This document shows, piece by piece, positions 21,686-63,668 of a stretch of DNA of 64,000 nt. A model generated the notes under the pieces. The model saw only the letters and a list, made by a program, of their open reading frames with translations, was not told the origin of the DNA and did no database searches. Numbering within the stretch: the first letter of the stretch is position 1; each line of letters opens with the position of its first letter. Source of the stretch: Eutreptiella sp. 'Long Island Sound 2002' (lineage: Eukaryota; Euglenozoa; Euglenophyceae; Eutreptiales; Eutreptiaceae); contig OZ038381.1 in NCBI GenBank assembly GCA_964036045.1, positions 155,886,352-155,950,351 of the forward strand, read 5' to 3'. The position numbers and the translations under genes were made by a program.

Positions 21686-21689
21686 GTTA

Positions 21690-22260: not shown

Positions 22261-22269
22261 ACTGTATTG

Positions 22270-25895: not shown

Positions 25896-25976
25896 AAGGA
25901 CCCGTGTTACCGCCGCCCCATCCAGGGCGCTCCTGGCTGGGTGGAAGCCAAAGGCCGCCGGGTGGGCCCGGGACTC

Positions 25977-27290: not shown

Positions 27291-27298
27291 GGTGTCAC

Positions 27299-28099: not shown

Positions 28100-29211
28100 A
28101 GGCGCACCTCACGGAGCAGCTGGTCGGTTCCCCTGCCTCGGGGAAGGTGAGGGGGGGGGGGGGGCAGCGGCAAGGCGGCCCCAGCCGGGAGGGAGTCCGG
28201 GGTAATGTCCGGGCAGGCAAGGGCGAGGAGGGTTTCCTCCGCTGCCGTGGTCCGGTAGGCCCAGGCCTGGTCCACGTCCCCCGTGGATAGGGCCGCTTGC
28301 CAGCCGGCCTCTACGGGGTTCAGGAGGCGCTGCGTAAGGAGGAGCCGTTCATGTTCCTCCGTTGGGATCAGCGCAACAGGCTTGGGGCGGATGAACTTCA
28401 CCACCCGCTAAGACCCGCCCTTCAGGTGCAGATCGAACCGTACCGGGGTGTGGCCAAGGATGGCCCCGCACGGTAGCAGTTCCGCTGCATGGAGCAGCGC
28501 CGCCAGCCTCCCATCTATGCGCGAGGGGCGCGTGCCCTCCGGGCCCTAGTACAAGCAGAGAGGGTCCCGCCCAAAGGCGGACGCTGGTTCAAGGTCCGCG
28601 TCCACCAGCCGGCGGACCAAGAGGGACGCCAAGACGGACTGGGGGCCCGCAGCATGTGGTTGATGTCGAAGTTGAAGTCCGCCCACACTTGCTGGGGGGC
28701 TGCCCCCGTGGCACGCCACGTATTGTGTGGCCTGGTCCCAGAAGACCCGGTTGAGGGCCGGCTTGGAGGAGACGCCGTAAGCCGCCCGGGCATGCAAGGA
28801 ATCCGCTCCCCACCCCAGGCCCGCCAGGACTTGGCACCAGCGGGTGGAGTGCCATAGGGCCTGAGCGAGGGAGTCCGCCTCGTTCCGGGGCGCTCCTTTG
28901 GGGGGTAGGATTTGTCTCGTGGGAATGCCCTGGCGCACCAGGATCCCCGGCCCCCCCCCCCGGCCGGAGCCCCCCAGGATGCGTGCCACCCCGAGGCCCC
29001 GGCCTGGGCGCACATCACTCGTTGTGCGACCGCCGTGAGGCGGGTTTCCGAGATCAAGACCACATCCACCCGCCACTCGGGCGACCGTGTGCCAGTGCAG
29101 GTGCAAGGACGTGACGTTGGCCTGCGCCACGCACAGCGGCCCCGGGTGTGGTTCCACGTCCCCGCAGTGCAGCAGCAGGAGGGGGGGGAGGTCCCGTCGG
29201 CATCCCACCAA
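28100..29211 (-). pseudogene. LINE ORF2 APE-type endonuclease with 2A-like motif
   Basis: The minus-strand frame opens with a leucine run and CGDVEPHPGP (29137-29166), which resembles the 2A consensus D-V/I-E-x-N-P-G-P with His for Asn. It is followed by ANVTSLHLHWHTVA. The endonuclease then continues in shifted frames: VDVVLISETRL (catalytic ET), GGPGILVRQGIP, ADFNFDINHM (the G/A-DFN strand) and GHTPVRFDLHL at the domain end (~28.41 kb). At least three frame changes are needed. A stop follows GHTPVRFDLHLKGGS, then VKFIRPKPVALIPTEEHERL continues as linker to about 28.10 kb, where the inserted transposon begins. Confidence 0.85.
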
Positions 29212-29299
29212 GGCGGGGGGAGGGGTGGAGACACTGTCGCCCTGGCGGGGGGGGGATGGGGGGGAGCACCTGTCCCACCCACGAACTCAACTACCATCG

Positions 29300-29930
29300 G
29301 TTAGAGGGCGCGAAGGGAGGGGTCAGAGGGGGGGGGGGGGCAGCAAAGCATGCCTGCAGGTCAACCATAGCTCCTGGGCCAGATGGGCCCGCTGCACCGT
29401 GGTCAGGTGGTCGGCGGAGGTCACCGGCCCAAGGTAGGCACGCCGGGAGGCGGGCGGGGGGGGGGGGCGGGGGAGGAGGCGGTAGCCCGCCAACGGCAAG
29501 CGGCAGGGGGGGGGGGGGGCTGGTAGGCGCGGGAGGCAGCCGTGCTCCCACCCCTCGGCAAGGCGGCCAGCCTCCGGGGCGACCTCGGGCAGGAGGTCCT
29601 GGTGGAGGCCGGGGCCGACGCGGCGGAGGACGTCCGGCCACCGGACTGTGGCCCAGACCTCCCCCAGCTCCGGCAGGGCGGCCCACCAGACGTCGGTGAT
29701 CCGGGGGAGGAGGGCTTGCACCTCGGCGGCCACCTCCCGCCACGTTGCCGAGGGCTCGGGGTCGGGGCCATGAGGCAACGGAAACTGGGCTCGCATACGC
29801 CCCCGTGTCACAGGCGCATGGTCATAACCACAATGTTCAGTGTTATCCTTGCTGCACTGCAGCGTAGACCAGTTCTTTACCACACCAGGTGGTTGCTGAC
29901 TGTGCCATGGCTTTGGTCCTCTGGACACTG
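29300..29930 (-). pseudogene. ORF1-like tail of the LINE, unknown fold
   Basis: The open frame has a protein-like part (TWREVAAEVQALLPRITDVW, LAQELWLTCRHALLP) interrupted by Pro-rich G/C-run sequence. Its position directly upstream of the endonuclease suggests the end of ORF1 or the start of ORF2. No RNA-binding motif is recognisable. Confidence 0.35.
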
Positions 29931-30419
29931 GGGTCAGCTCGCACCCACCACCCTCCCACAGTGCCGGTTAGACTCTAACCCTTGCCCTGCAGGTCGTGCC
30001 CCTGTCATGCACTTGCTCTGTGGCACGTGAGGACGTGTCGTACCAGAACCTGTGGGGCGCAAAGGCGCCTTTGGTGGCGCTAAGGCGTCTCAACATTTCA
30101 ACAACAGCTCCGACTGCCAGACACCTCAACAGATCGTTGCTGTACTGTGTGTGGCGAATACCTTTTCAGCACCATACCATGCGTGCACAAGCCGCCCACA
30201 CTTTCATGCCCCCTCGCTTCTAACGCCCTCAACGCTGCATTCTCGCGGCCCTTGTCATGCTTTTTCAACACGTAACGACGTGTCTCGCCTGTGCTCCAGG
30301 GGCGCAACGGCGCCCTGTTCTTTCACCATTTATCTGCTCTGTGCTGCCTTGGCGTCCCATACACCCTGGTCAGCTCGAACCCACCACCCTCCCTTTGCGC
30401 CGGTTAGCCCCCGTCTCTT

Positions 30420-30560
30420 GCTCTGTGGGTCTCTCTCCCACTCTCTCCCTCCCATTCTCTCCTGCTCTCTCTCCTGCACCCCACTCTCTCTCTCTCCTCT
30501 CCGTTCCTTTCCCACTGCGTCCCACTCTCACTCTCTCTCTCTCTCCCTCTCTCGCATAAA
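30420..30560. repeat. CT-rich (CTCT)n tract
   Basis: A pyrimidine-rich low-complexity tract with repeated CTCTCTC and CCCACTCTC words. Confidence 0.85.
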
Positions 30561-30599
30561 AGGGGGGTTCGGGACGTTCGGTGTATCTCTTTCCCCCCT

Positions 30600-30660
30600 G
30601 GGGTTCGAACCATCCTCTGCAGGACAGAAGAGGTGTGGCTTATCCACTTGGCTAAGACGA
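30600..30660 (-). other. tRNA-like sequence (SINE head or tRNA pseudogene)
   Basis: On the minus strand TTAGCCAAGTGGA fits a pol III A box, and GGTTCGAACC, about 45 bases downstream, fits the B box exactly. The anticodon arm has a 10-base loop and no matching acceptor stem could be paired, so this is not a functional tRNA as read. Confidence 0.5.
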
Positions 30661-30729
30661 TTGGTTATCTGCACCACTTCCTCCAATCTGTCATATTCCC
30701 CCCTGCGTGACATCCCCTGTCATGCATAT

Positions 30730-31340
30730 CTCCTCGGGGTCAGGGGGGGGGGGCTGGCAGGCGGGGTTGTTGTCCCACACTCGGCCCCACCAGTCCACCG
30801 CCACGGGGGTGGGGCATCGCGGTGGTCGTCTGTCCCTCGAAGAAAGTGAGGCGGCGGCGTCGGCGGAGGTGCCAGTAGTCTGGGGGGGTTCCAATGCACC
30901 ACCCGGCGGTGCCGGGTCGGCCGCCACACCAGCGTTCCGGTCTCCTCCTTCCACAGTGGTGCCAAGTACCAACGCCATGTGTAGGGGAGGCCGGCGCTCC
31001 GGGCGTCTGGCTGGGGGGCGCGCGCGAAGAGGACCTGGGGGTACCTCCACTGCAGGGCCAGGCCGACAGTGGCCCCCTTGTTCCCGAACTCGGGGCCATC
31101 GGGGCCCTGGACGGCTGACAGCCAGACCGGGCCGTCCGCACGATGGTGGTGGGTGTGCCACCACCCATTCCAGGCCCCGGCGAGGAGGTCTTGGAGGCGC
31201 TGGACCCCAGGGCACAGCCCCTCGAGGGAGGCAAGGGCACAGGTGGTGCTGGCCCACCCCCGGCGTTGGTGAGGGGCGGGGAACACCTAGGCGGCCCGGG
31301 GGGGGGCGACCCCTCGGGTCTGGACGCCAACTACCTCCCC
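30730..31340 (-). pseudogene. Retroelement-like coding fragment
   Basis: The minus-strand frames show a protein-like part (GNKGATVGLALQWRYPQVLF, WYLAPLWKEETGTLVW) and a segment AVDWWGRVWDNNPACQPPPP that resembles TVDWLGWNLMRQDAAQ at about 34.1 kb. This suggests two copies of the same LINE region. Family and frame are uncertain. Confidence 0.3.
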
Positions 31341-31539
31341 AACTAACTGTTGGCCGGAGGCCCCTATGGGGGGGGGGGAGGGGGGGGGTCAAGGAGGGGC
31401 TTGAGGGGGGTCTAGGAGGAGCTTGGGGGGGGGGGCTCCGGGAGGGTCGGTTGGGGGGGGGGTCTAGGTGGGGCGATTTGGGGTGGGGGGGGGGGGCACA
31501 GGCTCCCCTTACCTCCCCTTGCCCTCCCTCAACCATACC

Positions 31540-31745
31540 ATCATCATAAACCTAACCCTAACCTTTGCAGCTAGCTAGTATGGCCATGGCAGCCATGTTG
31601 ATTGGGCTGAACAAGATGCCCCAAATTTCGTTCATGGTTGCTTTTGCCACATCATTGCTCTCCATTTTGGACCCCAACACTCACTTTGACCCTAGCCTAG
31701 GGTGAGAGCCAGGGCTAGGGTTAGGGCTAGGGTCACCGAGCTGGT
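31540..31745. repeat. Telomere-like CCCTAA / TTAGGG interstitial words
   Basis: CCTAACCCTAACC at about 31547 and GGGCTAGGGTTAGGGCTAGG at about 31711, in opposite senses. Similar GGTTAGGGTTAGG words occur at 33560. Confidence 0.6.
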
Positions 31746-31763
31746 GGAACCAGTCTCCCTCTT

Positions 31764-33320
31764 TAGGTCTAGGGTGGACCTAACAGGTTTGGCAGCAGCA
31801 GCAAGCAGCAAGCAAGCAGCAAGCAAGCAGCATGCGCGAAATGGGGAAAAATCAGAATTCCGTCGTGGTGGTTCGGATTCGGCTGGAATGTTGGTGGATG
31901 ATACCTATGGGTGTGAAGTACAATCACACAAAGTTTGAGCCAGAAACTCAACGGTGGCGGCCGGGAACGGGATTCGCAAGTGGCGGACCTCCGTTTCAAA
32001 ATCTGTCAAAAGTGGCCAAAAAATGCCATTTTTAGGGCAGTTTGGGTGCCTAGGATATGCGTGAAGGGGTCCATCGTCATTGGAACTATCCTAAATGATA
32101 AACAAACACCTTTCATCATCGTTTGGTGTGTTATGTACCCGATCAGGGCCTCACCGACCTCTTTTTGGGCCCAAAATACCGCAACATGGGCCTGAAAAGC
32201 ACCCCTTTTGCATACCTTTTCAAATTACACCTTCTCGTGCCGTGTTTTATAGCCATGGATTGCATTGGGCACCCTTGTGGTGATTAATAACGATGAATGG
32301 GATCACTTTCAAGCCTTTTCAACATTGTCATCACCCTTCACTGCCCCATTTTGGCACGACAGAGTGGCGTTGAGCGCGCGCAGTGCATGTGCTAGGGTAG
32401 GGTTACAGGGGTCATGGGGGTCATCTGTAGGTCCAAAAATGGTCCAAAATCATTTTTTCCGACTTTGTTCCTAGACCACTTGGGGTGCTCAAACAAGTGT
32501 TTTTAGCCCGTTTTGAGCCCATGGTGGCCCGTTTAGTGTCTGGGGTGGACCTAACAAGTTTAGCAAGCAGCAGCAGCTAGCTAGTTTAGTGTCTAGGGCA
32601 GAGCAACAAGCAGCAAGCCGCAAGCAAGCAGCAAGCAGCACGCGCGAAATGGGAAAAAATGAGAACTCCATCGTTGTGCTTCGGATTCAGCTGAAATTTT
32701 GGTGGATGACAACTATGGGTGTGAAGTACAATCACACAAAGTTTGACCAAGAAACTCAACGGTGGTGGCCGGGAACGGGATTCGCAAGTGGCAGACCTCT
32801 GTTTCAAAATTCGTCAAAAATGGCCAGAAAATGCCTTATTTTGGGCAGTTTGGGTGCCTAGGATGTCCATGGAGGGGTCTATTTGCATTGGAATCAATCT
32901 AGATGATAAACGAACACCGGTTTAGTGTGTTTTGTGCCCGATTAGCGGGCTCAATGACCTTTTTTTGGGCCCAAAATACCGCAAAATCGGCCTTGAGAAG
33001 CACCCTTTTTGCACACTTTTTCAAGATGCACCTTCTTGTGCCGTGTTTGATTGGCATGGATTACATTGGGCACCCTGGTGGTGATTAATACCGAGGAATG
33101 GTATCACTTTGGAGCCTTTTCCACATTGTCATCACCCTTCAATGCCCCATTTTGGTACGATGGAGTGGTGTTGAGCGTGCGCAGTGCACGTGCTAGGGTT
33201 ACAGGGCTCATCGGTGGGTCCAAAAATGGTCCAAAATCATTTTTTCTAAATTTGTTCCTAGCCACTTGGGGTGCTCAAAGAAGTGTTTTTGGCCCGTTTT
33301 GAGCCCATGGTGGCCCGTTT
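31764..33320. repeat. Two-copy tandem repeat with ~800-bp period
   Basis: The first copy runs from about 31764 and the second from about 32533-32580 to 33320. Shared landmarks in the same order are the AGCAAGCAGC-rich start, CGCGAAATGGG, GGTGTGAAGTACAATCACAC, GGCCGGGAACGGGATTCGCA, TTTTTTGGGCCCAAAATACC and GGTGGTGATTAATA. Divergence is moderate, with many small changes. No coding signal is seen. Confidence 0.9.
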
Positions 33321-33369
33321 TGACCCTCCAAAATTCCCAAAAAACCTTGAAAACGGGCTTTTTGGGGAC

Positions 33370-33740
33370 CAAAAATGGGTCAAAAATGGGTCAAAAACCC
33401 TTTTTCCAAAATGATGGCTAGACCGTTTGGGGTGCACAAACAAGTGAAACGAGCCCATTTCGAGCCCATTGTAAGTGATTTTGGCCCGTCTAAAGTCACA
33501 AAATGCCTTAGAGGTGATGTTCCTTTCCCCACCAGCTCGGTCCCAATATTCGGTCGTGGTTAGGGTTAGGTGTAGGGATAGGAGTAGGCTGAGGGTTGGG
33601 GGTGGGCGTTAGGGTCAAGGTTGGGTTTAAGGATAGTGTTGGGGTTCCAAATTGCATAAAATTTGCCTTGGGGCACCTTTGGTGTTCATGGAGCATCAGG
33701 CGCCTTTGGCGCCCATGGACGCCTGAGGGCAACACCTTTG
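33370..33740. other. Non-coding tail of the repeat block
   Basis: GGGTCAAAAATGGGTC words, then GGTTAGGGTTAGG-derived sequence (33556-33640), then CAGGCGCCTTTGGCGCC. No gene is visible. Confidence 0.5.
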
Positions 33741-34194
33741 GCAACTAACTATTGGCCGAAGGCCCCTAAAGGGGGGGGGGGGGGGGCAGGGGTAGTTGGC
33801 GTCCTAGGACCCGCAGAGTCGCCCCCCCCCCCCCGGGCTGGGCGGCCTAGCCGTACCACCATCGCAGCAGGGCGAGGCCATGGTGCCGCCGCTAGTTCCA
33901 AGGGAGTGGGGGGGGGGGGGCCTGCGTGCCCGCGTCCTCGCCCTCGGCCCCGTCCTCGCGGTCCCCGTGCCGTGGGCAAAAAAGGCCGACGGCAAGTCGT
34001 AGGGGGGCCAGGGCAGGTCGCAGGAGGGCCACGGGAGTGGGCGGGCGGGGGGGGGGGGGATAGGTGGCACTGAGCGGCATCTTGCCGCATCAGGTTCCAT
34101 CCCAACCAGTCCACGGTCAGTCGGCACGCTCTGTTGGCCCGGTTCGCAGCCGCCGTCCGTCCCGGTGGGGGGGAGGGGAGGGGGGGGGAGTAAC

Positions 34195-35010
34195 TCTCAC
34201 ACGCCCGTGGCTGCGCCCAGCGCGAGGGACAGCCGCAGCGCCGCAGCGGCTGGGTCCCATGCCATCCCGCCACCGCCACACACCGGAGTGGGGCCCCCTG
34301 CCCCCGCCCAGGCGGGATCCCCCCACCGAGAGGGGCCCAAGGCCATCTCCTCGCCGTGGGGCGCCCTCGTGGGCTGTGGGCGTATAGGCACCCTCCTGCC
34401 GCAAAGAGGGTCCGGTTCCCGAGCCCATCCTAGGGGGAAGCCCACCAGTGCTGGGTCCACCGCCACCACCACCATAACTAGCCCTGGGCGCAACCGGCAG
34501 GGTGCCAGGAGGCCGGCTCGGGGCGTCGGGTCTTGTGCCTCTTCGGGTCTGGGCGCCGGTGTCGGCCGGCGTGGGCTTGCCGTCGCCCCTAGGCGCTGCG
34601 CAACCCACCCCCGCCGTTCCTCGGGTAGGCGGCATTCGCTGTCAGCCCGACCCGTGGACGTTGCCCCTCCCAAGGGGGGGGGGGGGCGTGGCACGTTCCC
34701 GGTCACGCTCGGTGCGAGGGGCAGCTGCAGTGCCGCGGCAGCTGTGCCCCCTGCCATACCGCCACCGCCCCACTCCAGCGTGGGGCCCCCTGCCACCGCC
34801 CAGGCGAGCCCCCCCCCCCCCCCCTCCAAACGGGACTGAGGGCCATCACCTCGCCCCGGGGTGCCCTTGTGGACTGCGGGCATACAGGCACCCTCCTGCC
34901 AAGTAGGGGGTCCGGTCACTGGGGCCACCCCGAGGGGGGGGTCGCCGGTGCTGGGACCGCTGCCATAACCACCACCACCAGCCCCGGGCGTGACTGGTAG
35001 GGTGCCAAGG
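34195..35010. repeat. Two-copy tandem repeat, ~490-bp period
   Basis: 34200-34505 and 34690-35010 share ordered landmarks: GCGAGGGRCAGC, CCATACCGCCACCGCC-like, GGGGCCCCCTGCC, CATACAGGCACCCTCCTGCC, GGTCCGGT and GGCAGGGTGCC. The copies differ by many substitutions and C-run lengths. Long open frames here are Gly/Pro-rich and probably reflect composition. Confidence 0.8.
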
Positions 35011-35131
35011 GGGGTAGTCTTGTTGCCACCCCCCCCCCCCCCCCCACAGGTCACCGCTCGGGTCCCTGCCAGCCACTGCCGGCAGGCTGCCACACTCAGG
35101 TAGAGGGTAAAGAGGAGGAAGGCGCAGAACA

Positions 35132-37496
35132 TTAAAGAATGTACTCGTCCTCCTCATCCACGTCGACTACCGCCGACTCCGCGTTGGCCATGGCCAGGTC
35201 CCCTGTGTGGTCCGGGGCCTCCGTGGCCGCTGATGCTGCCCCCCCCCCGGATCCCTCTTGGCGTGTCATGCGGGCCCTAGGGCCCACGGGCTCGTAGTGC
35301 CCCTGGCGGGAGCTGCGGGTGGTCCGCTCCCGGAGGCGGTCGGGGAGGCGGGTGTCCAGCGCGAGCAGCAAGACGCTCTGCCAGTCCTCAGGCACCCCCT
35401 CCAGCTCGAGGCTAAAGACCAGCCGGTCGAGGGTGCTGTGGGCCAGCTGGGTGCAACGGTGGACACGAATGGTCACCTCCGACCCAAAAGCCTCCTTGGC
35501 GTAGCGCCGGAGCTGCGCATACTCGTCCACAGCCACACCCAACTGCGACGGGTAGCCCCGGACCCGCACATAGGTCATCTGTGTCGGGGCCGGTGCGCGC
35601 AGTAGGGCAGCGATGTGCTCCACCACCGTGGGGTTTGCCGGTCCCCCAGACTCGGACCCCCACGTTGCCGGGGGCACCCCCGTCCACTAACCCCGCAAAC
35701 AGCGACTAGAGCTTCTGGTCCTTGGCGAGGGTCTTCCAGACCTCCGGGGAGGGCCCGCAGCGCTGTGGTGGCTGCTTGTACCACAGCACGTACGCGTGGT
35801 GTTGGCACGCGGCGCCCGTGTCGATCCATTGCCGGAAGTGTGCGCCCCGGGCCTTGCCGCTGGCGCGCATAACTAGGGGCACCACCTCCGTCGGGAGATC
35901 TGCTGAGACCTCCACCCTCGATCCCCAGATCCCCGCTTGCATTGGTGGGGGGTGAGGCAGGGCTGCCCCGATGAGGTGCCGCCAGGCGTGGTCTTTGCCG
36001 AAAGCACCCACATGGAGGCGGCGCGCGTTGGCATCCGCTAGAACCGCTGGGTCCAGGACGTAGACGACCCTGACCATGGACGGCAGGGGGTCCAGCGGCG
36101 CGCGGTCCACATCCGGGCGCTCGGCAGCCTCCCGCCCGTCGTCCTTCGGGAGACGCTCCCAGACGAGTTGCAAGACGTGCCCCAGCGGAGCGGGGTCCAC
36201 CACCACCGGGCTTGCTGTCTCCCAGGGCTTGCGCTCAGTCCGGACCATGCCCTGCAGGGAAGTGCCCGGCACCGAAAGGCTGGCTTTCGCGCGGCGGGGA
36301 GCGTGCGGCAAGGTCGCCACTGTGGGGGCCGCTTTGTTGCCTCCTTGGACGTGCACCACCGCCGTGACCCGCTGGATGCCGTCATGCGCCGTGATGGCGG
36401 CCACAGCCGCAGACTGGGCCTCGTGGACCGTGCAGCCCACCACGGCCACACATCGTAGGGCCCCCTTTGGGGAGGGTTGTTTCCACTCCGCCGGGTGTCG
36501 CCCCGGCGTGATTTGGGTGATGCCCCGTTCCCGGATCGTGTCCCGGGACTCACCCTGGTAAAGGCGGCGCGGCTGCACTGCCATCGTCGAAGGCAGCAGA
36601 GCCTAGAGGGCAGCAGCCGTGGGTTGTATCGGCGGGGGCGTCGTCTTACCACAGCCAGCGGCCGCCACCAGCCGCACTGCACTCAGCCGGGACCCTCGCG
36701 CAGCGGATGGTGTCATTGAGGCGTAGGTCACGCCAGGGCCAGCATGCGGGGGGGAGGGGATCCCTCTTCGATGCCCCCCACCCCCCACAAGTTGATGTTG
36801 CCCTTGGCTATCTTGATGTCTTCCCGGGCCCATTAAGGCTGCGAGGAGGCGAAGGGGTGGGGGGGGAAGATGCCCCGATCGACAGAGACACCCATTGCGG
36901 TGCTCCACGCTCCGCTGGCCAATGCCGGTCCCAGTCCACACGCACAGGGACTGGGGAGGAGCGGATGGGGAGCTCTGGGGTGCACTTGCTGCGCCTGGGC
37001 GTTCCTAGGACGCCGTTTGGGTTCCCGTCCCGCTAGCTGCCAGGTAGGGGCCGCCCGAGATGTGGGGGCAGCCGCCATATTGGCTGTCGCACTCTTAGTC
37101 GACTTTGAAGTCTTAGTCGTCGTCGTTGTCGCCGTCGCTGCGGCCGCTGCCGCCGCGGTCGCCCCGCCACGGAGCCACGGTGCCGGGGCTGGCTCGCCCC
37201 GCGACTCCACCAGCTCGCGGCGGAGGGTGTTGATCACGCCCTTGAGGGACGCAATCTGCCGCTGCAGCAAGGCGATCATTGCCTGCTCAGCAGTGGGGGG
37301 AGAGGGGAAGGCTGGGCGGGCCCACCGCCCCCCTTACGCCCCTTGGAACGGGAGCGGCTGCGTGCCGCCTGCTCATGGATGGTTGCGGGCAGAGTGCCGC
37401 GAGGAAAGGAGCCAGCGCCGCGCCTATGGCCGTAAGTACCGCGGGGCGCTGTAGGAGGGCAGCCAGTTGGGTGGCCACCCCCTCTTGGTCACCCAT
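35132..37496 (-). pseudogene. LINE ORF1-like region of a second copy
   Basis: Three minus-strand frames follow one another. 37496-37287 begins MGDQEGVATQLAALL. 37279-36833 begins with a short heptad-like helix (IALLQRQIASLKGVINTLRR), then an Ala/Thr/Lys-rich linker. 36584-35706 (MAVQPRRLYQGESRDTIRER, HVLQLVWERLPKDD, VVYVLDPAVLADANARRLHV) is followed by 35677-35132 (TYVRVRGYPSQLGVAVDEYA, RLVFSLELEGVPEDW) with an acidic end (DVDEEDEYIL). A coiled coil followed by a compact domain and an acidic or basic tail fits a LINE ORF1 protein. The frame changes suggest decay or base-call errors in homopolymers. Position just upstream of other LINE pieces supports it. No zinc knuckle is seen. Confidence 0.5.
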
Positions 37497-37639
37497 CCTG
37501 CTCGGGGCGCGAGGGCGAAGGAAAGGGGAGACGCAGAACCTTCAAAGTAAAAGTCAAGAAAATTGTAGCTTAGCTAGGCAGCCTCACCACGTGCAGGTTC
37601 ACAACAAGAGGCCTGTAGGTCCACAACAAGAGGCCGAAA

Positions 37640-38050
37640 TGGGGGGAAATAGGGAGAAATGGGGGAAAGTGGGGGAAGTTGGGGGAAATGGGGAAAAGAT
37701 ATTGGAAAAACTGGACGAAAATGGGGAAAATATGGAGACTAGGGAAAAATTGGAGAGCCAGCAAACTGATACCCAACCCATCCGTGGGTTGCGGACAACC
37801 TGTAGCGGAATGCAACGCACCCTTTTGTACGGGTGAACATGGTCCATGGGAGAAATCTGGCAAAAGTTTGAACCCTTCATTCCCCCTCGCAATGCACCCC
37901 AAACTTCTGCCCTATTCTTCCCCACTTTTCCCATTCCCCCCACCCCACTTTTCCCATTCCCCCCACCCCCATGTTTCCCCCATTCCCCCCCGTTTTCCCT
38001 TGTTGTTCCTCCAGCCATCACCCAGCATACCCACCCCCATCAACACTGAA
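37640..38050. repeat. GGGGAAAT / CCCCATTTCCC low-complexity tracts
   Basis: A purine-rich GGGGGAAATGGGG tract (37640-37760) is followed by a pyrimidine-rich CCCCACTTTTCCCATTCC tract (37920-38000), a loose inverted arrangement. A related CCCCCATTTCCCCCTA tract lies at 23990-24015. Confidence 0.75.
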
Positions 38051-44198: not shown

Positions 44199-45065
44199 CT
44201 AAAGCCAGTCCTTTTCCATCGGCCACCCGCAGCTGTGCAACTTTTTGCAAAGGTGCCGGGTCTCGGAGTCCAGTTTGAACAGCACGGCCACAGTGGTCGG
44301 CCGGCCGCCGGCCAAGGGCCCCAACGTCGCCGACCCAATGCCCACGACGCAGTGCATGGTCTCGTTCTCCTGGAGGCTGAAGTAGACCCGGTCCTTCTTC
44401 GTGTCCCGCAGGTGACTGATGTCGGTGCTAAGCACCACCATCCCGTCGTTGCCCCGCTCCACCGCCTTGACCACTTGGTCAAGGCCGTGCGCCTGCAGTG
44501 CCCCCAGCGACACAAGTTCGCTCACCAGACTGACTGCCTCGTCATCGGGGGCGAGCCCTTCCCTTGCGGCTGCCTGTAGGCGCTGTTTAAGGGTCCCTCT
44601 GCCCTTCCTTTGCTCCGGCTCTTGGTCGGCTGCGTCATCGTCCATCATCCCAAGAGCCTCCATGACCGACAAGCCAAATGCGTCCCCGTTGTCGGCGCCA
44701 CCGCAGTCCGCGTCGCGGTACTCAGGATCAGGCGCAACATCATCACCAGCGGCGTCAAAGCGGACACGCTTCGCCGCAGGCTCTGTGTCCGTGTCTCCTC
44801 CTGCACCTTCATCAGGAGTGATGTGGGCCTCTTTCTTTTTCTTCTTCCTCTTCCTTGCACCCTTTTCACTGTTGTCATCCAATTCCTTCTCCTCCTCCAT
44901 GTGCTGTGCAATTTTCTGCTCCTGCTCCTTCCTCTCCCCATTCTCCTTCTTCTCCTTCTTCTCCTTCTTCTCCTTCTTCTCCTTCTTCTCCTTCTTCTCC
45001 TTTTTCACTTGAACATCCAAAGCGCCTTTGTCAGACTCTGCTGCAGTGGCCAACTCAGCACTCAT
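44199..45065 (-). CDS. Lysine-rich protein of unknown function, single exon
   Basis: A complete frame of 288 codons runs from ATG (45065; A at -3) to TAG (44199). Residues 1-20 are neutral. Residues 21-45 form a KEK tandem (KKEKKEKKEKKE) encoded by a (TTCTCC)n hexanucleotide on the plus strand. Acidic and basic stretches follow, including a nuclear-localisation-like RKRKKKKK and AAKRVRFD. From about 165 to the end the sequence is non-repetitive and looks folded (SLVSELVSLGALQAHGL, DRVYFSLQENETMHCVVGIG, TTVAVLFKLDSETRHLCKKL, GWPMEKDWL). The layout suggests a nuclear protein with a disordered, coiled N-terminus. I do not recognise the C-terminal domain. No intron or frameshift is needed, in contrast to the surrounding decayed sequence. 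A transposon-borne origin is possible but unsupported. Confidence 0.72.
   Translation of the reverse strand: MSAELATAAESDKGALDVQVKKEKKEKKEKKEKKEKKEKKENGERKEQEQKIAQHMEEEKELDDNSEKGARKRKKKKKEAHITPDEGAGGDTDTEPAAKRVRFDAAGDDVAPDPEYRDADCGGADNGDAFGLSVMEALGMMDDDAADQEPEQRKGRGTLKQRLQAAAREGLAPDDEAVSLVSELVSLGALQAHGLDQVVKAVERGNDGMVVLSTDISHLRDTKKDRVYFSLQENETMHCVVGIGSATLGPLAGGRPTTVAVLFKLDSETRHLCKKLHSCGWPMEKDWL
44938..45003. repeat. In-frame hexanucleotide repeat (TTCTCC)n
   Basis: About ten units inside the gene at 44199-45065. The unit is a multiple of three, so length changes keep the frame and only alter the number of Lys-Glu-Lys steps. Confidence 0.9.
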
Positions 45066-49806: not shown

Positions 49807-52800
49807 TCAGCCAGACTGGTGACGCGTGTTCGCCTTCTGGAAGGAGCGCCAGCCTGCGTACAGCAGCGCCCCGATGCCCACAAGCGCCCCTGCCGCTGCC
49901 AGCCCCGCGAGGGCGGCGTCCCAATCGGGCTCCTCCCACAGATCCTGCTCGTACTGGTAGCGGGACATGGCAGGGGCGGAGGCTGCCCGTCGTGGCTCCG
50001 AGCCAGAGGCAGGCCGCGCGGGGCGGCGCTGATGACACGTGGTGCGCTGCAGGCCTTGGAGGACCTGCGTGTCGCTCTCGTCCAGCGCGTCAGCATTTTG
50101 CGAGAGGAAATCATCCAGGCGACGGGCATTGACCTGTGGGATGCGAGTGTTTGGCTGAAACTGCGCGCCTCGTTATACGAGGCGCAAATTGGGCTCGGCG
50201 CGCGCCTCGCTAGCACCAAACCCCCCCCCCCCCGTGCGCCTCGTCAGTGCCAACCCCCCCCCCCCCCCCCGTGCGCCTCGTCAGCGCCACCCCCCCCCCC
50301 CCCCGTGCGCCTCGTTAGCGCCAACCCCCCCCCCCCCCCATGCGCCTCGTTAGCGCCAAACTCCCCCCCCCGTGCGCCTCGTTAGCGCCAAACTCCCCCC
50401 CCCCGTGCGCCTCGTTAGCGCCAAACCCCCCCCCGTGCGCCTCGCTAGCGCGCCAAACCAACCCCCCATGCGCCTCGTTAGCGCGCCAAACCCCCCTCCC
50501 CCTGTGCACCGCCTTGCCTGTGGCCCCTTAAATAACAAGACTCCTGCGGTGGCTACAGACCGCCTTTTGTGTGCACCGCCTTGTGTGTGTACCGCCTTTT
50601 GTGTGTACCGCCTTGCCTGTGGCCCCTTAAATAACAAGACTCCTGCGGTGGCTACAGACCGCCTTTTGTGTGCACCGCCTTGTGTGTATACCGCCTTTTG
50701 TGTGTACCGCCCTGCTTGTGGCCCCTTAAATAACAAGACTCCTGCGGTGGCTACAGACCGCCTTTTGTGTGCACCGCCTTGTGTGTATACCGCCTTGTGT
50801 GTGTACCGCCTTGCCTGTGGCCCCTTAAATAACAAGACTCCTGCGGTGGCTACAGACCGCCTTTTGTGTGCACCGCCTTGTGTGTGCACCGCCTTCTATG
50901 TGCACCGTCCTGCTTGTGGCCCCTTAAATAACAAGACTCCTGCGGTGGCTACAGACCGCCTTTTGTGTGCACCGCCTTGTGTGTGTACCGCCTTGCTTGT
51001 GGCCCCTTAAATAACAAGACTCCTGCGGTGGCTACAGACCGCCTTTTGTGTGCACCGCCTTGTGTGTGCACCGCCTTGTGTATGCACCGGCTTGTATGTG
51101 CACCGGCTTGTGTATGCACGGACTTGTATGTGGACTACGCGTCTCGTGAGTGCCACCCCCCCCCCCCCGTGCGCCTCGTTAGCGCGCCAATCCCCCCCCC
51201 CTGCGCGCCTCGTTAGCGCCAAAACCCCCCCGCGCGCCTCGTTCGCAACCCCCCCCCCCGTGCGCCTCGTTAGCGCCAACCCCCCCCCCCCCCCCCCGTG
51301 CGCCTCGTTAAACGAGGCGCGCAGTCTCGGTCAAACAATGTGGGATGCGCAGGGGTGGGTTCCCTCAGTGAACTGGGTCGATACATCACTGGACTGAAAT
51401 CGGTGACTGCACACCGGCTTGCCCCAACTGTTCTGGTTGCGAATTGGTTGATCATTATTCGGGTCTGGTTCCACATTGGGTGCACTTGGAGTTTCGGGTT
51501 GGTTTCTGGTTGCTTGGTCCACAGGCAGACCACAGCAAGCACGTTGCTCATCTCTTTCCTCCTCCATCTTTCTTTCCCTCGTTGAACTGTTGCACATTGT
51601 TGTTCTCAATCGGGGTGTTTCCCAAATTAACACCAGAACCGAATAGCACATGGAAAACACGTGCAATTCAACTGTAAGGGAATTGCGATTGCATGTCACT
51701 GACTTGAATTCTTGAAATGTTTGATTTTTCTCCGTTGGTCTTGGAAAGGAAAGGAAAAGATTGTTTACAACGCTGGGTACAATGGCCCCACTTGGGGGGT
51801 TGTCCAGTGTGGGCCATTACGTAATTCGTACATAGAAAATAACGGATTGGATTACCAGCACCATCCCCCATTTTCTCAACATTTGGTAATCTACATGTAC
51901 TCAACATCTGGCACTCCTTGAGACAGATGCCTAAGCTTCTTAACAGCAGCCCCCGCCTTCACAAGCCTGCTTTTGGGACAAAAAATGGCTCGTTTTGACG
52001 AAAACTGTGCCAGTGTTGCAGGGTAGACCCCCAACTTGGGGCCAGCACCCCAGGCCGCCATCGCTGAATTTTCGGCCCAAACTTAAAGTTTGGCAAGGGC
52101 ACCTGGGGGGTCGAAGCCATGAGACTTGTGGCCGGCGTGACGCCCCTCTGTGCTGGCGATGGACAATATGGATTGGTGAGGTGCAGTAAAAACATTTCAG
52201 CACAGACACACAAACAGACACACAAACAGACACACAAACAGACACACACGCACGCCCGCATTGCAACGCAACAACACAGCAGAAAGCACCGCAACACCGA
52301 GACACAGACACAACCTGCAGAGGTCCTCGACACATCGGACAACTGGGAGTCTGGTGCTTTGCCCTGCATTGACGGACCCATCCTGCCAGACACTGGGCGT
52401 GGAAGTAGTGATGCCTGTGGACCACGACATGCAGAAGCTCAGCCCGCGGCCCCAACCCTGAGAGAAGCCTAACCATACATCGTAGCACAAATCTGAACTG
52501 TGGAGAGGAACCTGTCATTTGGTCTGCACCTCTGCATCAACACTCCCTCCCTGTGTCCTTTGTCCACCCCCCACCATTGGCATCCTTCCCCTTCGCTGCT
52601 TGCCTCCCGTCCACCAGGTCCCAAGTTGCCCCCTTCCGTGTGACGGCTAAAATTGAGATGCAGATTCCGGACCTCATCCAACTGCGCCTCCTCCTGTCCT
52701 AATGGGTGACATCTGAAGCCTGCCATCCCAGTAGTGTTGTTCGTTATAGTGTTGAATCCGCTGGGAACAATGCAAGACTCCACAGAGCTCAACCGCAACT

Positions 52801-56059: not shown

Positions 56060-56806
56060 ATTTCAAGTGTTGTGTAAGCTACTCTAGTGCCGGCTACATG
56101 CCCTACTTCCCTAGCGCAAAGGACGTCCAGCTTGTCTACATAGGTTGCCAATCAAATCAACAAGCTCCGCCTACAACAGGGCCTAGTGCTCCATGGTTAA
56201 CGCCCAACCAAAACTACTCCGGGTCTAACGACAAGCACTACTTACTACAGTGGCGGACAGGGAGATGGCCAATATGAATATTCAAGTCTACGTCCTGCTA
56301 CTGACTGTCACATTCATCATCTGGACCATCAATGTACGATGGGTTACCCTCACGACCCCCACCCCTTGGGCTACTTTGAAGACCACAATGTGGCCGACCA
56401 AGGTTTTGCATCAACTTTTGAAATGCGGATACAACCAGTCCTTGAAGAGTCCGACATCTTCCCAATCCCTATCACCACAAGACCACCGGTGCCAGCTCCT
56501 AGAGCACTCCAGCTAGGATGTGCCCCTCCACCGGATGCGTACGTTGCTAACAGGATCACCCTAGTGCCAATATGTGAACCCTGCGCTCCGCAGTCACAAT
56601 GCAGCCATGGCGAATCCTCCGCTCTCTCTTCTACCAACGTTGATGACCAGCCCTACGACAACTCGTTGGCCTCGCTGCTTGCCCCCGTCATCCGGGCGTT
56701 CGCCTCTCCCAAAGTCTTCAACGTTTTACGGCTTGCCATGCCCAAGCCCAACAACAAAATGCTTGCCGCAACTGTGAATGTACCTACGGCTCACTTGGAA
56801 ATGTGA
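56060..56806 (+). pseudogene. Coding-like exon running into the large inverted repeat
   Basis: The plus-strand frame 56252-56806 reads GGQGDGQYEYSSLRPATDC, GYFEDHNVADQGFASTFEMR, IQPVLEESDIFPIPITTRP and NSLASLLAPVIRAFASPKVF, and ends TAHLEM-TGA. Just upstream another frame (QQAPPTTGPSAPWLTPNQNY, SGSNDKHY) appears to join it at a YY..SGG step with a small frame change or a splice (CTACTTACTACAG acceptor). Composition is protein-like, Pro/Gln/Tyr-rich upstream and folded-looking downstream. The last nine codons lie inside the arm of the inverted repeat (from ~56779), so the original C-terminus may have been replaced. No family is recognised. Confidence 0.4.
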
Positions 56807-56989
56807 AGTTGGGGCTCGGTTGGGGCTAAAACGGCTCATTTGGGGCTAAGTGGTGTTTTTCAAGGGGTTTCATGTGAAAACTTGTGGCTTTCGGGGGTGG
56901 GTTGGGGTTTTGGAATGTCCCCAAAGGGATCCCAATCCCTAGTCCAAGAGGATTCGACCGGGGGGGTATTTTTTTTTCGACGGCTCAGT

Positions 56990-57140
56990 TGACTAAGCAC
57001 CCCGACTCAGCCGTCACTGAGCCGTCACTAAGCCAGCTCACTTAGCTCTCACTTAGCTCTCACTTAGCTCTCACTGAGCGCGCCAAATGGCTCACTGAGC
57101 GCTCACTGAGAGCTAATTAGGGGCTCACTCAAGGCTCACT
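56990..57140. repeat. TTAGCTCTCACTGAGC-type array, left arm
   Basis: Repeats of GAGCCGTCACTGAGC, CTCACTTAGCT and CGCTCACTGAG. The mirror copy is at 62405-62560. Confidence 0.9.
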
Positions 57141-58019
57141 CAGGAGTTTCTCCCCCTTTCCGCCCTCTCTTCCCACCCTTGCCGGCCCACACTTCACCCT
57201 TTTCACACCAACATCGGTCCGCAGTTGTCACCATGTCTTTTCTCCAAGAACTTGAGCGTGCATGCACACATACATACTTGCATACATGTACCCACCGCGA
57301 CAAACACACAAACATCCAAACACACACACTTCGTGAGGGACACAAATATCCAAACACATACACACACATACACCCATACACACGTCCACACACACATGCA
57401 CATGCACAAATGGACAACCACATTCATTCTTGTGTGCAATTATCTTGCGTGTACATAAACACATGGCCACATTGAGGCATGCGCAGTGAAGGGCTAGGGA
57501 GAGATGGTTACGGGGTTGGGGTTTGGGGATATGAACCTAGCCATTTGCGAGGGTGTTCCTCGTTGCCTCATGACAATGGCACCCCCTCCCCCCCCCCACA
57601 CACAGGGGCGCGCGCCATGAAGCACAAATAGGGCATAGAGGATATTGCTCGCTTTTGTGAGGTTCATCATACAACCATCTTGACCTACACCATGACACAC
57701 TCATTCCCCTCCCTCCTTATCCCCTCCCCTCCCCTTTTGCATTGCCGCGTCCCCCCGCTTACCCCATGCGAACCCCTTCTCTTATCTTGCCTGTCGCGTC
57801 CCCTTGCCCTGCCCTTGCCATGCCTTTCCTATTTGTTGGCCATGGCATCAAGTGCATGATGGTGGCGGCAATGACGATGACCTTTGCAGGTATGGTGTGC
57901 TATTGTGTGTGCTTGTGTGCGTGTGTAGTTGTGCCCATGCGCATGTGCGCAAGTGTAGATGGTTTGTTCGCTCTTGGTTTCTCTCATTTAGTGTGTTTTA
58001 TGCATGTTTGTGTGTGAGT

Positions 58020-58645
58020 CGGGGGGGGGGGGGGGCTTGCTTGGATCGATGGGTGGGTGAAGGTGTCCTTGTGCGTCACTGTGAGTGTGTGACCGCATTC
58101 TTTGGTTTCTGGTTGCCCAGGTTTGTGTGCGTATGTGGATTCGTGAATGTGTGTACGCGCAGGTGTGTGTGTGTGTGCCAATGTGTGTGTGTGTGTGTGT
58201 TGCAGCTTTTGCAGCTGTGGTTTTGGATGTTGTTATTGGTTTTGGTGTTGCGTGGCATAGGCTTTGATTGTGTGCGCATAACATTGTGTTTGTGGCTGCA
58301 GATGCAGGTATGGTTGTGTTTGTGGTTGTGGCTGTGGTTCTCGGCTTGCGTGCGGTTGTTGCCATGGCCGTTGTGGTAGCTCTCGTTGTGGGTGTGGTTA
58401 TGGCAGTGGCTGTGGTTGCGGCTTTGGTTGTGGGTGTGGCTGTGGGTGTGGGTGTGGGTGTGGGTGTGGGTGTGGGTGTGGCTGTGGGTGTGGGTGTGGG
58501 TGTGTTTCTGCAAGCTGTGTTGTGTGTGGATTTGGTTGTGGTTGTGTCAGTGTGTGTGGCGCTGGCTGTGGCGAAGGCTGCAGTTGCAGCTTTCACTGTG
58601 GCTGCAGCTGTTCTTTGGGTTCTGGCTGTAGCTGTGGGGGGGGGG
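58020..58645. repeat. (GT)n and GGTTGTGGCTGTGG degenerate array, left arm
   Basis: Long G/T-rich tract with GGGTGT and GTTGTGGCTG words. The mirror copy (CA/CCACAGCCACAA) is at 60935-61560. Confidence 0.9.
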
Positions 58646-58714
58646 GGGTTAAAGGACTGCAAAGAGGGGGCTCAAATTACCATCCACCCCCTCCAAAAAA
58701 AATCGCACCAAGTT

Positions 58715-59107
58715 TACAGTGACAGTGTACAGTGACAGTGTACAATGACAGTGTACAGTGAGAGCATACAGTGAGTGTAGAGTGACAGTGTAGAGTGCTA
58801 GTGTAGAGTCTTGGCCGTTGTGGCGGACGCACTGTGTGTGGGGATACATTCTATGAGACCTTGGGGAGTACAGTGTACAGTGTACAGTGTACAGTGTACA
58901 GTGTACAGTGACAATGTACAGTGACAGTGTATAGTGACAGTGTGCAGTGGCAGTGTGCAGTGTGCAGTGACAGCGTGCAGTGCCAGATTACAGTGTACCA
59001 TGTACAGTGACAGTTGATAGTGACAGCATTGACAGTGTACATGGACAGTGTACAGTGACAGTGTACAGTGACAGTGTACAGTGACAGTGTACAGTGACAG
59101 TGAACCA
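58715..59107. repeat. ACAGTGTACAGTG array, left arm
   Basis: GTACAGTGACAGTGTACAGT units, interrupted at 58800-58868 by a unique 65-base spacer (TTGGCCGTTGTGGCGGACGC then GAGACCTTGGGG). Mirror copy at 60490-60870. Confidence 0.92.
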
Positions 59108-59275
59108 TGAGTGAGCCCTCACTGAGCGCTCACTGAGCCATTTGGCGCGCTCAGTGAGCGCTCACTGCGCCGTTTGGCGCGCTCAGTGAGCGCTCAGTGA
59201 GCGCACGAAACCGCTCAGTGAGCGCTCAGTGAGGGCGCCAAACGGCTCAGTGGGCACTCACTGAGCACCTGAACG
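59107..59275. repeat. GAGCGCTCACTGAGC array, inner left
   Basis: Palindromic words GCGCTCACTGAGC and GGCGCGCTCAGTGAGCGC with CCATTTGGCGCGC. The same word family as the outermost arm repeats. Mirror copy at 60330-60490. Confidence 0.9.
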
Positions 59276-59280
59276 CTTGC

Positions 59281-60330
59281 ACTGTACGGTGTGCAGTGTG
59301 CATTACACAGTGTGCAGTGCGCAGTGTACACTGCGCACTGCACACTGTGTACTGCACACTGCACACTGTGTATTGCACACTGCACACTGTGTATTGCACA
59401 CTGCACACTGTGTATTGCACACTGCACACTGTGTATTGCACACTGCACACTGTGTATTGCACACTTCACATTGTGTATTGCACACTGCACACTGCAATGC
59501 ACACTGCACACTGTGTCATGCACACTGCACACTGTGCATTACAAATTGCACACTGCACGCTGTAATGCACACTGCACACTGTTTATTGCACACTGCACAC
59601 TGCACACTGTGCATTACAAATTGCACACTGCACGCTGTAATGCACACTGCACACTGTGTATTGCACACTGCACACTGCACACTGTGTGTTACAAATTGCA
59701 CACTGCACACTGTAATGCACACTGCACACTGTGTATTGCACACTGCACACTGCACACTGTGTGTTACAAATTGCACACTGCACACTGTAATGCACACTGC
59801 ACACTGTGTAATAAACTCTGCACACTGTGTATCGCACACTGCACACTGCACACTGTGTATTGCACACTGCACACTGCACACTGTGTGTAGTGTCCACTAC
59901 ACAGGGTGTAGTATGCCGCGTGTGATGTAATCCACACTGCACACTGTGTAATGCACACTGCACACTGTGTCATGCACACTACACGCTGCACCCTGTGTAT
60001 TGCACATTGGGTATTGCACAGTGCACCGTGTGCAGTGTGCAATACCCAGTGTGCATTACAAAGGGTGCGGTGTTCAGTGTGCAATACACAGTGTGCAGTG
60101 TGCATTACAGTGTGCAGTGTGCAATTTGTAATGCACAGTGTGCAGTGTGCAGTGTGCAATACACAGTGTGCAGTGTGCATAACAGTGTGCAGTGTGCAAT
60201 ACACAATGTGCAGTGTGCAATACACAGTGTGCAGTGTGCAGTGTGCAGTACACAGTGTGCAGTGCGCAGTGTACACTGTGTAATGCACACTGCACACTGT
60301 GTCATGCACACTGCACACCGTACAGTGCAA
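59281..60330. repeat. TGCACACTGTGTATTGCACAC core array
   Basis: About 650 bases (59340-60000) of TGCACACTG with GTGTATTGCAC and GTAATGCACAC variants on the plus strand, then about 255 bases of the complement (CAGTGTGCA). The turn-arounds are short perfect palindromes, for example GCGCAGTGTACACTGCGC at 59326-59343. Confidence 0.93.
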
Positions 60331-62934
60331 GCGCTCGGGCGCTCAGTGAGTGCTCACTGAGCCGTTTGGCGCTCTCACTGAGCGCTCACTGAGCGGTTTC
60401 GCGCGCTCACTGAGCGCGCCAAACGGCGCAGTGAGCGCTCACTGAGCGCGCCAAATGGCTCAGTGAGCGCTCAGTGAGGGCTCACTCATGGTTCACTGTC
60501 ACTGTACACTGTCACTGTACACTGTCACTGTACACTGTCCATGTACACTGTCAATGCTGTCACTATCAACTGTCACTGTACATGGTACACTGTAATCTGG
60601 CACTGCACGCTGTCACTGCACACTGCACACTGCCACTGCACACTGTCACTATACACTGTCACTGTACATTGTCACTGTACACTGTACACTGTACACTGTA
60701 CACTGTACACTGTACTCCCCAAGGTCTCATAGAATGTATCCCCACACACAGTGCGTCCGCCACAACGGCCAAGACTCTACACTAGCACTCTACACTGTCA
60801 CTCTACACTCACTGTATGCTCTCACTGTACACTGTCATTGTACACTGTCACTGTACACTGTCACTGTAAACTTGGTGCGATTTTTTTTGGAGGGGGTGGA
60901 TGGTAATTTGAGCCCCCTCTTTGCAGTCCTTTAACCCCCCCCCCCCCACAGCTACAGCCAGAACCCAAAGAACAGCTGCAGCCACAGTGAAAGCTGCAAC
61001 TGCAGCCTTCGCCACAGCCAGCGCCACACACACTGACACAACCACAACCAAATCCACACACAACACAGCTTGCAGAAACACACCCACACCCACACCCACA
61101 GCCACACCCACACCCACACCCACACCCAGACCCACACCCACACCCACACCCACAACCAAAGCCGCAACCACAGCCACTGCCATAACCACACCCACAACGA
61201 GAGCTACCACAACGGCCATGGCAACAACCGCACGCAAGCCGAGAACCACAGCCACAACCACAAACACAACCATACCTGCGTCTGCAGCCACAAACACAAT
61301 GTTATGCGCACACAATCAAAGCCTATGCCACACAACACCAAAACCAATAACAACATCCAAAACAACAGCTGCAACACACACACACACACACACACACACA
61401 CCTGTGCGTACACACATTCACGAATCCGCATACACACACAAACCTAGGCAACCAGAAACCAAAGCATGCAGTCACACACTCACAAACACTCACACACAAA
61501 GACACCTTCACCCACGCATCGATCCATGCAACCCTCCCCCCACACACACACAAGCAGACATACAAACACACTAAATGAGAGAAACCAAGAACGAACAAAC
61601 CATCTACACATGCGCATGGGCACAACTACACACGCACACAAGCACGCACACCCACACCCACACACATAATAGCACAACATACCTGCAAAGGTCATCGTCC
61701 TTGCCGCCACCATGATGCATGTGATGCCACGGCCAAAAAATTGGAAAGGCATGGCAAGGGGACGGGACAGGCAAGAGAAGAGAAGGGCTACACACGAGGG
61801 AAGCGGGGGGACGCGGCATGGCAAAAGGGGAGGGGAGGGGATAAGGAGGGAGGGGGATCAATGTGTCATGGTGCAGGTCAAGATGGTTGTATGATGAACC
61901 TCACAAAAGCGAGCAATATCCTCTATGCCCTATTTGTGCTTCATGGTGTGTGTGTGTGGGGTGGGTGGGTGCCATTGTCATGAGGCAACGAGGAACACCC
62001 TCGCAAATGGCTAGGTTCATATCCCCAAACCCCAACCCCGTAACCGTCTGTCCCTAGCCCTTCACTGCGCATGCCTCAATGTGGCCATGTGTTTATGTAC
62101 ACGCAAGATAATTGCACACAAGAATGAATGTGGTTGTCCATTTGTGCATGTGCATGTGTGTGTGGACGTGTGTATGGGTGTATGTGTGTGTATGTGTTTG
62201 GATATTTGTGTCCCTCACGAAGTGTGTGTGTTTGGATGTTTGTGTGTTTGTCGCGGTGGGTACATGTATGCAAGTATGTATGTGTGCATGCACGCTCAAG
62301 TTCTTGGAGAAAAGACATGGTGACAACTGCGGATCGATGTTGGTGTGAAAAGGGTGGAGTGTGGGCCGGCAAGGGTGGGAAGAGAGGGCGGAAAGAGGGA
62401 GAAACTCCTGAGTGAGCCCTGAGTGAGCCCCTAATTAGCTCCCAGTGAGCGCTCAGTTAGCCATTTGGCGCGCTCAGTGAGAGCTAAGTGAGAGCTAAGT
62501 GAGAGCTAAGTGAGCCGGCTCAGTGACGGCTCAGTGACGGCTCAGTCGGGGTGCTTAGTCAACTGAGCCGTCGCCAAAAAAAGTACCCCCCCCCCCTTGA
62601 ACCTTGACCAAGTGAGTATCTAAAACTTCTAAAAGCAGTAAATGCACATTACCTAGCATGCAAAAAGCACAACAAACAAGCACAAAGACATCGCAATGCA
62701 CAACTGAGCCCCAAATGAGCCCCAACTTCACATTTCCACTTAGCCACCAGTGAGCCGCAGGTACAAACGCCCTTGACAACGTTCCGACGGCCACCTGATT
62801 CACCGTAGTTCAACGATCTTGTCAAGTAGGCGACATCTGCGTAACAGGCAAAGCCCATGGTGTTGGACATTGTTGTTGGAGGCTAGCCGATGACAGCGGC
62901 GATGGACGGGCTTGCACCCAAGACAAACGGGAAG

Positions 62935-63668
62935 ATGTATGTACCCTTCGTGAACCGGCCGTTTGAATCCGAGATTCACGGTACCGTGAATTTCACCGAT
63001 TTTTGCTTTGTTTTGCTCGTAACTTGGCGCCATCGTTAGCGTTTCTTGTGCCATCTTCGCCAAAACGTTGTCGTTAGAAATGTCTTGAAATTTGATGTTT
63101 AACCTTGTTGGTAGCTTGCGAATGTTGGGCTCAATCACCGTGAACGCAACACAAATTTACCAAATTCACGCATGCGTGAATTTGCGTGAATTTCACGTGA
63201 ATTTGGGTGATGTTTTCCTGAAATTTGGAAATTTTGGAAATTCGTACGAATTTCGTACGAATCTGGAGATTCTGTGAATTTCGCAGACAGTGCGCGCGAC
63301 ATTCGCACGAATTTCGTACGAATCTGCCGAATTCGCACGAATTTCGTACGAATTTCCTACAAATTCGTACGAAATTCGTATGAAATTCGTACGAATATCT
63401 CAAATTCAGGCCCAAAGGTACCGGGACATAATTCTGGGATTGTTTTTGGGCGCCGTTTGGGCCTGATGGGTCCGTTTGGGGTGGGACTTTCACTGAATCA
63501 TGGGGACTGAAAATGGAACTTGAGGTTTGCCCCCTCTAATACGTCATATTGAAGCTAAAATGTAGTGTTTTCTCAAAAAAAAAAACACCAAAAATGGGTC
63601 AAATTCGCATGAAATTCACGCAATTATTCAAACGGCCACTTAACCCCCGTTCACGAAGGGTACATACA
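62935..63668. mobile_element. 734-bp inverted-repeat element with 5-bp target duplication
   Basis: GGAAG flanks it on both sides (62930-62934 and 63669-63673). The ends are inverted: TGTATGTACCCTTCGTGAAC from 62936 and the same read inward from 63668, each followed by GGCCGTTTGAAT. The interior is full of AATTTCGTACGAATT-like palindromes. No transposase is present, so it is a MITE-like element. It sits about 170 bases outside the large foldback element. Confidence 0.85.
63170..63400. repeat. ATTCGTACGAAT palindromic array
   Basis: Roughly ten ATTCG(C/T)ACGAAT(T/C) units in close succession inside the 734-bp element. Confidence 0.9.

Follow-up and report, generated by a model that had tools for sequence, protein, structure and literature searches.

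What kind of genetic unit is a near-palindrome of ~6 kb whose arms are built from an ordered series of different tandem repeats? The question is raised by positions 56,779-62,765 of a 64,000-nucleotide stretch of contig OZ038381.1 from the euglenophyte Eutreptiella sp. 'Long Island Sound 2002'; this whole stretch is referred to below as the window, and all coordinates are counted along it. The answer favored here, with a probability of roughly 60%, is a foldback-like element, non-autonomous and eukaryotic, with relatives elsewhere.

Architecture of the palindrome

Two inverted arms had been proposed in a first-pass annotation made from the letters alone, and they are borne out by aligning the sequence with its own reverse complement, where 56,960-62,592 matches itself at 88.8% over 5,813 columns (291 mismatches, 62 gap openings, E=0). 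Long inverted repeats form most of the element and are themselves internally tandem-repeated (six block types with Tandem Repeats Finder rows), two of the properties expected of the foldback class. At both limits lies a further, outer inverted repeat, with TGTACC at 56,779 recurring in reverse complement at 62,765 (consensus start TGTACCT(A/G)CGGCTCACT); when the first 60 bases of the two outer ends are aligned, they score 60, a value reached by 0 of 2,000 shuffles. The mirror symmetry first described holds for the arms and the outer repeats, but it is not continuous, as ~110 bp just inside each outer end are unrelated between the sides.

From left to right, the order is outer repeat, spacer, blocks C, D, E, F, G, H, I and J, the TGCACACTG core and then the mirror image (Table 1; block limits were placed by eye, and the core limits were likewise chosen by the analyst). 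Tandem Repeats Finder reports rows for six of the seven repeat blocks, although the TG-rich one is covered only partly. The rows fall in 11-bp CACTTAGC/CACTGAGC units, a portion of the TG-rich block, 6/12-bp TGTGGG units, 13-bp GTACAGTGAC units, 11/32-bp CACTGAGCGCT units and the TGCACACTG core (14/21/75 bp); the CA-rich block (57,151-57,480) has no row at score 50 and is recognizable by eye. The ordered repeat blocks are real, but 57,481-57,880 and 58,641-58,710 are not simple repeats. The motif CACTG/CAGTG is frequent in four block types, with, in the left arm, 2.3 occurrences per 100 bp in C, 8.9 in I, 5.8 in J and 8.1 in the core (densities being similar in the right-arm copies of C, I and J), against a background of 0.32 in 1-56,700; the TGTGGG block has 0.73, the CA-rich, TG-rich and non-simple blocks 0 to 0.29, and the left outer repeat and spacer 0. 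That CACTG might be a protein-binding site is speculation.

Where is the center of the palindrome? The core switches strand at ~60,028 (runs of exact units: 2 reversed, 49 forward, 19 reversed, 3 forward), and not at ~59.77 kb, where the mirror center had been placed. The left core measures 749 bp vs 304 bp for the right core, and the latter aligns at several places in the former, a tandem expansion. Given the position of the switch and these extra tandem copies, 59.77 kb is simply the geometric midpoint.

Patchy divergence between the arms

The arms were rightly described as similar but not identical: over 2,473 ungapped columns (left arm 56,980-59,540) they differ at 94, by 52 transitions and 42 transversions. 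These mismatches come in patches, with 0/273 in 57,228-57,500, 52/610 in 57,581-58,245 and, farther inward, 4/886 in 58,246-59,144 and 16/244 in 59,278-59,530. The longest mismatch-free run spans 726 ungapped columns (58,455-59,204), a count that ignores two gaps of 13 and 11 columns inside it; in 2,000 shuffles the longest run averaged 129 columns and never exceeded 274. The natural reading is that some stretches of the arms were recently converted; constraint on the same stretches is a less obvious possibility.

Arm sequence at other loci

Is the arm confined to this locus? A right-arm open reading frame (ORF; 60,921-61,571), for which the 7,996 candidate proteins sharing most words with it were scored, matched three predicted proteins (P0007, P0008 and P0009) at E<=1e-5, which stand for three contigs of up to 489,672, 3,208,326 and 175,610 bp. 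They score 272, 191 and 86.7 bits, whereas in a low-complexity control with 200 codon-shuffled arms the highest scores were 57.8, 58.9 and 29.3. P0008 appears to run from the outer part of one arm into the opposite arm: its residues 1-43 match 57,233-57,358 or, equally well, 62,318-62,193 (65% over 43 residues, E 1.4e-12), and residues 37-164 match 61,176-61,538 on the same strand as residues 1-43 (76% over 128), apparently as though a center of ~3.8 kb had been deleted. P0009 starts with 100 residues that are unmatched in the window, and its arm sequence begins at ~61,431. Candidates for dispersed, variable copies are these three loci with partial arm sequence, seen at the protein level only, in this genome or perhaps in a relative. 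Other searches, made in collections from which the window's genome or close ones may have been omitted, gave 21 and 124 pattern matches to the arm ORF among viral contigs and genome contigs, respectively, with 0 confirmed, 0 matches to two exact motifs among the viral contigs, and no match to 721 bases of the arm among plasmids.

Which of the two arms do these relatives resemble? In the divergent zone, compared in analyst-chosen pieces of 44, 45 and 40 residues with one frame per arm, P0007 (37/43 identical to the right arm vs 27/43 to the left) and P0009 (30/40 vs 21/40) are right-like, and P0008 is left-like (36/45 to the left vs 28/45 to the right). P0008 has in common with the left arm a three-residue insertion (KAA) and the residues IQASPPP, and the two keep an ungapped frame of 58 residues (46/58 identical) that runs past a 4-bp difference between the arms; DPCN is common to P0007, P0009 and the right arm. 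Some residues are mixed, with P0008 agreeing with the right arm at YT and PRQ, and P0007 with the left arm at ST and KEC. As left and right variants recur at other loci, the differences between the arms are old variants, and a read artefact becomes unlikely; the arms are not copies identical save for read errors, an outcome that the first-pass annotation had named among those that would undo its proposal.

Does the element move?

The proposed mechanism can be outlined as follows. Two ~3-kb arms of ordered tandem-repeat blocks flank the TGCACACTG core, and the short inverted repeats at the outer limits probably serve as ends for a transposase that would have to come from elsewhere. Paired arms would favor gene conversion in patches, or template switching, which may have left near-identical patches beside divergent ones, and tandem slippage would account for block lengths that do differ.

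Several observations weigh against a mobile foldback element. No transposase domain was found among the six element ORFs scanned (192-227 amino acids; 0 Pfam families); 33 stop-to-stop ORFs of 100 or more amino acids overlap the element, and seven were scanned, six inside it and one from the flank. The sole transposase domain detected, and the only Pfam match to pass its curated cut-off, is Dimer_Tnp_hAT (39.7 vs 21.4 bits), in a scan that covered 34 of the window's 52 stop-to-stop ORFs of 180 or more amino acids, eight of them trimmed to the start codon. The two spacers are identical at only 39 of 100 columns. No exact 7-mer recurs as a direct repeat around the outer ends (0 found, 0.22 expected), and if the element begins at TGTACC, AA stands on both sides, a weak 2-bp match. 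As for the relatives, they are seen as predicted proteins only and one of the three contigs may be the window's own; P0008 could be a spliced gene model rather than a deletion; and the exit of P0009 from the arm in mid-block suits fragments as well as elements. Finally, whole-match scores for the right and left arms (272/161, 191/153 and 86.7/50.8 bits) favor the right arm for all three proteins, even for P0008, in part because the frame of the left arm is broken there.

The search for insertion marks went further. The outer ends gave 0 direct 9-mers with one mismatch (0.39 expected) and two 10-mers with two mismatches (1.31 expected). Target-site duplications of the Mutator superfamily measure ~8-11 bp; neither a duplication of this type (0 exact 7-mers, 0 9-mers with one mismatch) nor the 7-bp one of the P superfamily, that of Galileo (0 exact 7-mers), was found at the outer ends. 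Within 12 bases of these ends the sole direct repeat of at least 4 bp is GTAC, a self-complementary word that carries no information on insertion. At the inner ends there was one exact 7-mer, AAAACTT at 56,877 and 62,622 (0.27 expected), one 9-mer with one mismatch at the same site (0.42 expected) and eight 10-mers with two mismatches (1.73 expected); as a target-site duplication, AAAACTT was rejected, since its distances from the inner repeat differ between the sides. Of the original proposal of a mobile or amplified unit rather than an artefact, the reality of the unit is supported, by arm sequence at three other loci and the recurrence there of the left/right differences; transposition is inferred, and no duplication of 7 bp or more was found.

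Alternative explanations

Could the two arms have come from different copies? Because two old variants sit in the arms, and the search for a long target-site duplication found none, this copy may be a chimera that arose when two foldback copies recombined ectopically, and it may mark a rearrangement breakpoint, much as has been described for Galileo (PMC3573991, PMC2775673). This possibility, which is compatible with a foldback element and is entertained only tentatively, would also suit the unrelated outer spacers and the recurrence of left-like and right-like divergent-zone variants, each at other loci. However, the known copies are three, partial and at the protein level only, and P0008 agrees at some residues with the right arm; every copy might normally carry one variant in each arm; and a superfamily with a 2-bp duplication would yield the same flanks.

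Alternatively, a minisatellite-rich segment may have been duplicated locally in inverted orientation, by replication template switching or break repair instead of transposition, with the relatives being segmental copies. Such an origin, which is rather unlikely, would agree with non-homologous outer spacers, with the missing long target-site duplication and with P0009, in which the arm is joined, mid-arm, to sequence unmatched in the window. Yet one simple event would not be expected to place matching outer inverted repeats beyond unrelated spacers, and P0008, at another locus, has outer-arm followed by opposite-arm sequence. Near-palindromes are also a known form of artefact, but a fold-back chimeric read from library or assembly is very improbable when mismatches are clustered rather than evenly spread, variants recur at other loci, core lengths are unequal and the outer spacers are unlike.

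Comparison with known foldback elements

How exceptional, then, would such a foldback element be? The first-pass annotation considered a foldback of at least six ordered microsatellite families and no transposase unusual, which goes too far: FB4 (PMC4022104), Tetris (PMC4079207) and Tm1 (PMC3169594) provide described cases of foldbacks that lack a transposase and have tandem-repeat modules in their arms, and precedents exist for ordered tandem-repeat arms, asymmetric ends, absent target-site duplications and chimeras alike (PMC4079207, PMC3169594, PMC3573991, PMC2775673, PMC4022104, PMC3310237). FB4 of Drosophila melanogaster, likened here by description, is non-autonomous, varies in length and has long inverted repeats with internal minisatellite-like modules; its ten studied copies span 627-2,266 bp, vs ~6 kb and about seven ordered blocks here (PMC4022104). 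Tetris of Drosophila virilis combines modular inverted repeats containing tandem units with no apparent coding capacity and rearranged copies; in contrast to the present element, its inverted repeats contain a single type of tandem unit of ~220 bp and are at most 1,735 bp long, and its target-site duplications are 8-10 bp, vs none of 7 bp or more here (PMC4079207). Galileo, of the P superfamily, shares long, internally repetitive inverted repeats and forms chimeras with divergent arms and non-matching flanks, but its inverted repeats extend to ~1.2 kb and it has a 7-bp duplication and a known transposase, neither of which was found here (PMC3573991, PMC2775673). The Mutator/foldback element Tm1 of Meloidogyne has inverted repeats of composite build, in which several motifs follow a fixed order, and a ~14-bp tandem unit, and some of its copies are without target-site duplications; unlike here, the family is defined by 9-bp duplications and some members encode transposase, and the present arms are longer, with more repeat families (PMC3169594). 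Foldback arms made of tandem repeats are already known, and what is unusual is how long the arms are and how many ordered blocks they contain; among the titles and abstract openings consulted, no ~6-kb foldback with this many repeat families was met, which does not prove absence.

The element and its surroundings

Table 1. Coordinates of the parts of the palindrome
Feature	Position	Strand	Description
Left outer inverted repeat	56,779-56,850	+	Starts TGTACCTACGGCTCACT; ~20 bp extra and 10 bp fewer vs right end
Left spacer	56,851-56,960	.	Unrelated to right spacer
Block C, left arm	56,978-57,150	+	11-bp CACTTAGCTCT/CACTGAGC units
Block D	57,151-57,480	+	CA-rich; 0 mismatches in 273 columns vs right arm at 57,228-57,500
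Block E	57,481-57,880	+	Largely non-simple sequence
Block F	57,881-58,230	+	TG-rich; inside divergent zone 57,581-58,245
Block G	58,231-58,640	+	6/12-bp TGTGGG, TGTGGC units
Block H	58,641-58,710	+	Poly-G and a short non-repeated stretch
Block I	58,711-59,105	+	13-bp GTACAGTGACAGT-type units; 35 CACTG/CAGTG per 395 bp
Block J	59,106-59,277	+	11/32-bp CACTGAGCGCT units
Left core	59,278-60,026	+	Chiefly TGCACACTG units; 75-bp tandem expansion at 59,477-59,876
Right core	60,027-60,330	-	Chiefly CAGTGTGCA units
Right arm	60,331-62,592	-	Blocks J to C, order and strand reversed
Right spacer	62,593-62,700	.	Unrelated to left spacer
Right outer inverted repeat	62,701-62,765	-	Reverse complement starts TGTACCTGCGGCTCACTGGTGGCTAAG

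An open frame of 201 amino acids (56,201-56,806) runs from the left flank into the left end of the element. For the ORF at 56,201-56,785, whose end lies just within the element, none of 110 candidates was a homologue at E<=0.01, and 0 Pfam families matched. Some 170 bp to the right of the element lies a small inverted-repeat element (62,936-63,668), whose ends match at 66% over 89 columns and which contains palindromic AATTTCGTACGAATT-type units. The right ends of the large and the small element both start with TGTACC and contain GGNGGNTAAGTGG, a pattern that was chosen after viewing these, its only two matches in the window. In an anchored alignment the two right ends score 19, reached by 2 of 5,000 shuffles, and in an ungapped local comparison 188 of 2,000 shuffles reach the score; because another TGTACC site scored higher (24) against the right end of the large element, a link between the two elements is only suggestive.

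A further inverted-repeat element occupies 50,146-51,338, with ends of 39 bp matching at 87%, and holds arrays of 34-bp poly-C-bearing and 16/99-bp ACCGCC units. It is flanked by an 11-bp direct repeat, TGTGGGATGCG, at 50,135-50,145 and 51,339-51,349, which has no further occurrence on the forward strand of the window. The presence of this second element with internal arrays speaks for the foldback-like reading of the large palindrome.

The hAT-domain ORF (9,839-11,599, minus strand, 586 amino acids) also has a DUF659 match below the cut-off (19.8 vs 34.7 bits). Together with the texture of the window, this ORF suggests eukaryotic DNA. Six relatives of it were found, five of them on ENA contigs of up to 1.18 Mb; one, on a 1.15-Mb ENA contig, is 96% identical over 81% of the ORF. 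Elsewhere, the window scan gave a CLIP_1 match below its cut-off (17.8 vs 26 bits), and an ORF at 44,199-45,065 with a lysine-rich start came just under that for Ribosomal_L7Ae (21.4 vs 22.1). The GC content is 0.61-0.71 in two stretches (~21-32 kb and ~33-38 kb), with flanks at ~0.5-0.58, and the GC-rich part, 21,000-38,000, contains many overlapping open frames, with 0 Pfam matches among those tested. Rfam and ARAGORN gave 0 matches across the window.

Significance

What would a foldback element of this kind mean? The range of foldback-type elements would then include arms of ~3 kb with a longer ordered series of repeat families, and the element would offer a test case for two roles, the seeding of satellites, which has been argued for Tetris, and that of rearrangements, which has been reported for Galileo. 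A bolder and unlikely version holds that in this family micro- and minisatellites follow one another along the arms in a fixed relay, with four of the block types rich in CACTG, that the arms are maintained by converting each other in patches, and that the present copy combines two sublineages as a chimera located at a rearrangement breakpoint. If that were true, these elements would be both satellite nurseries and points of breakage in the genome.

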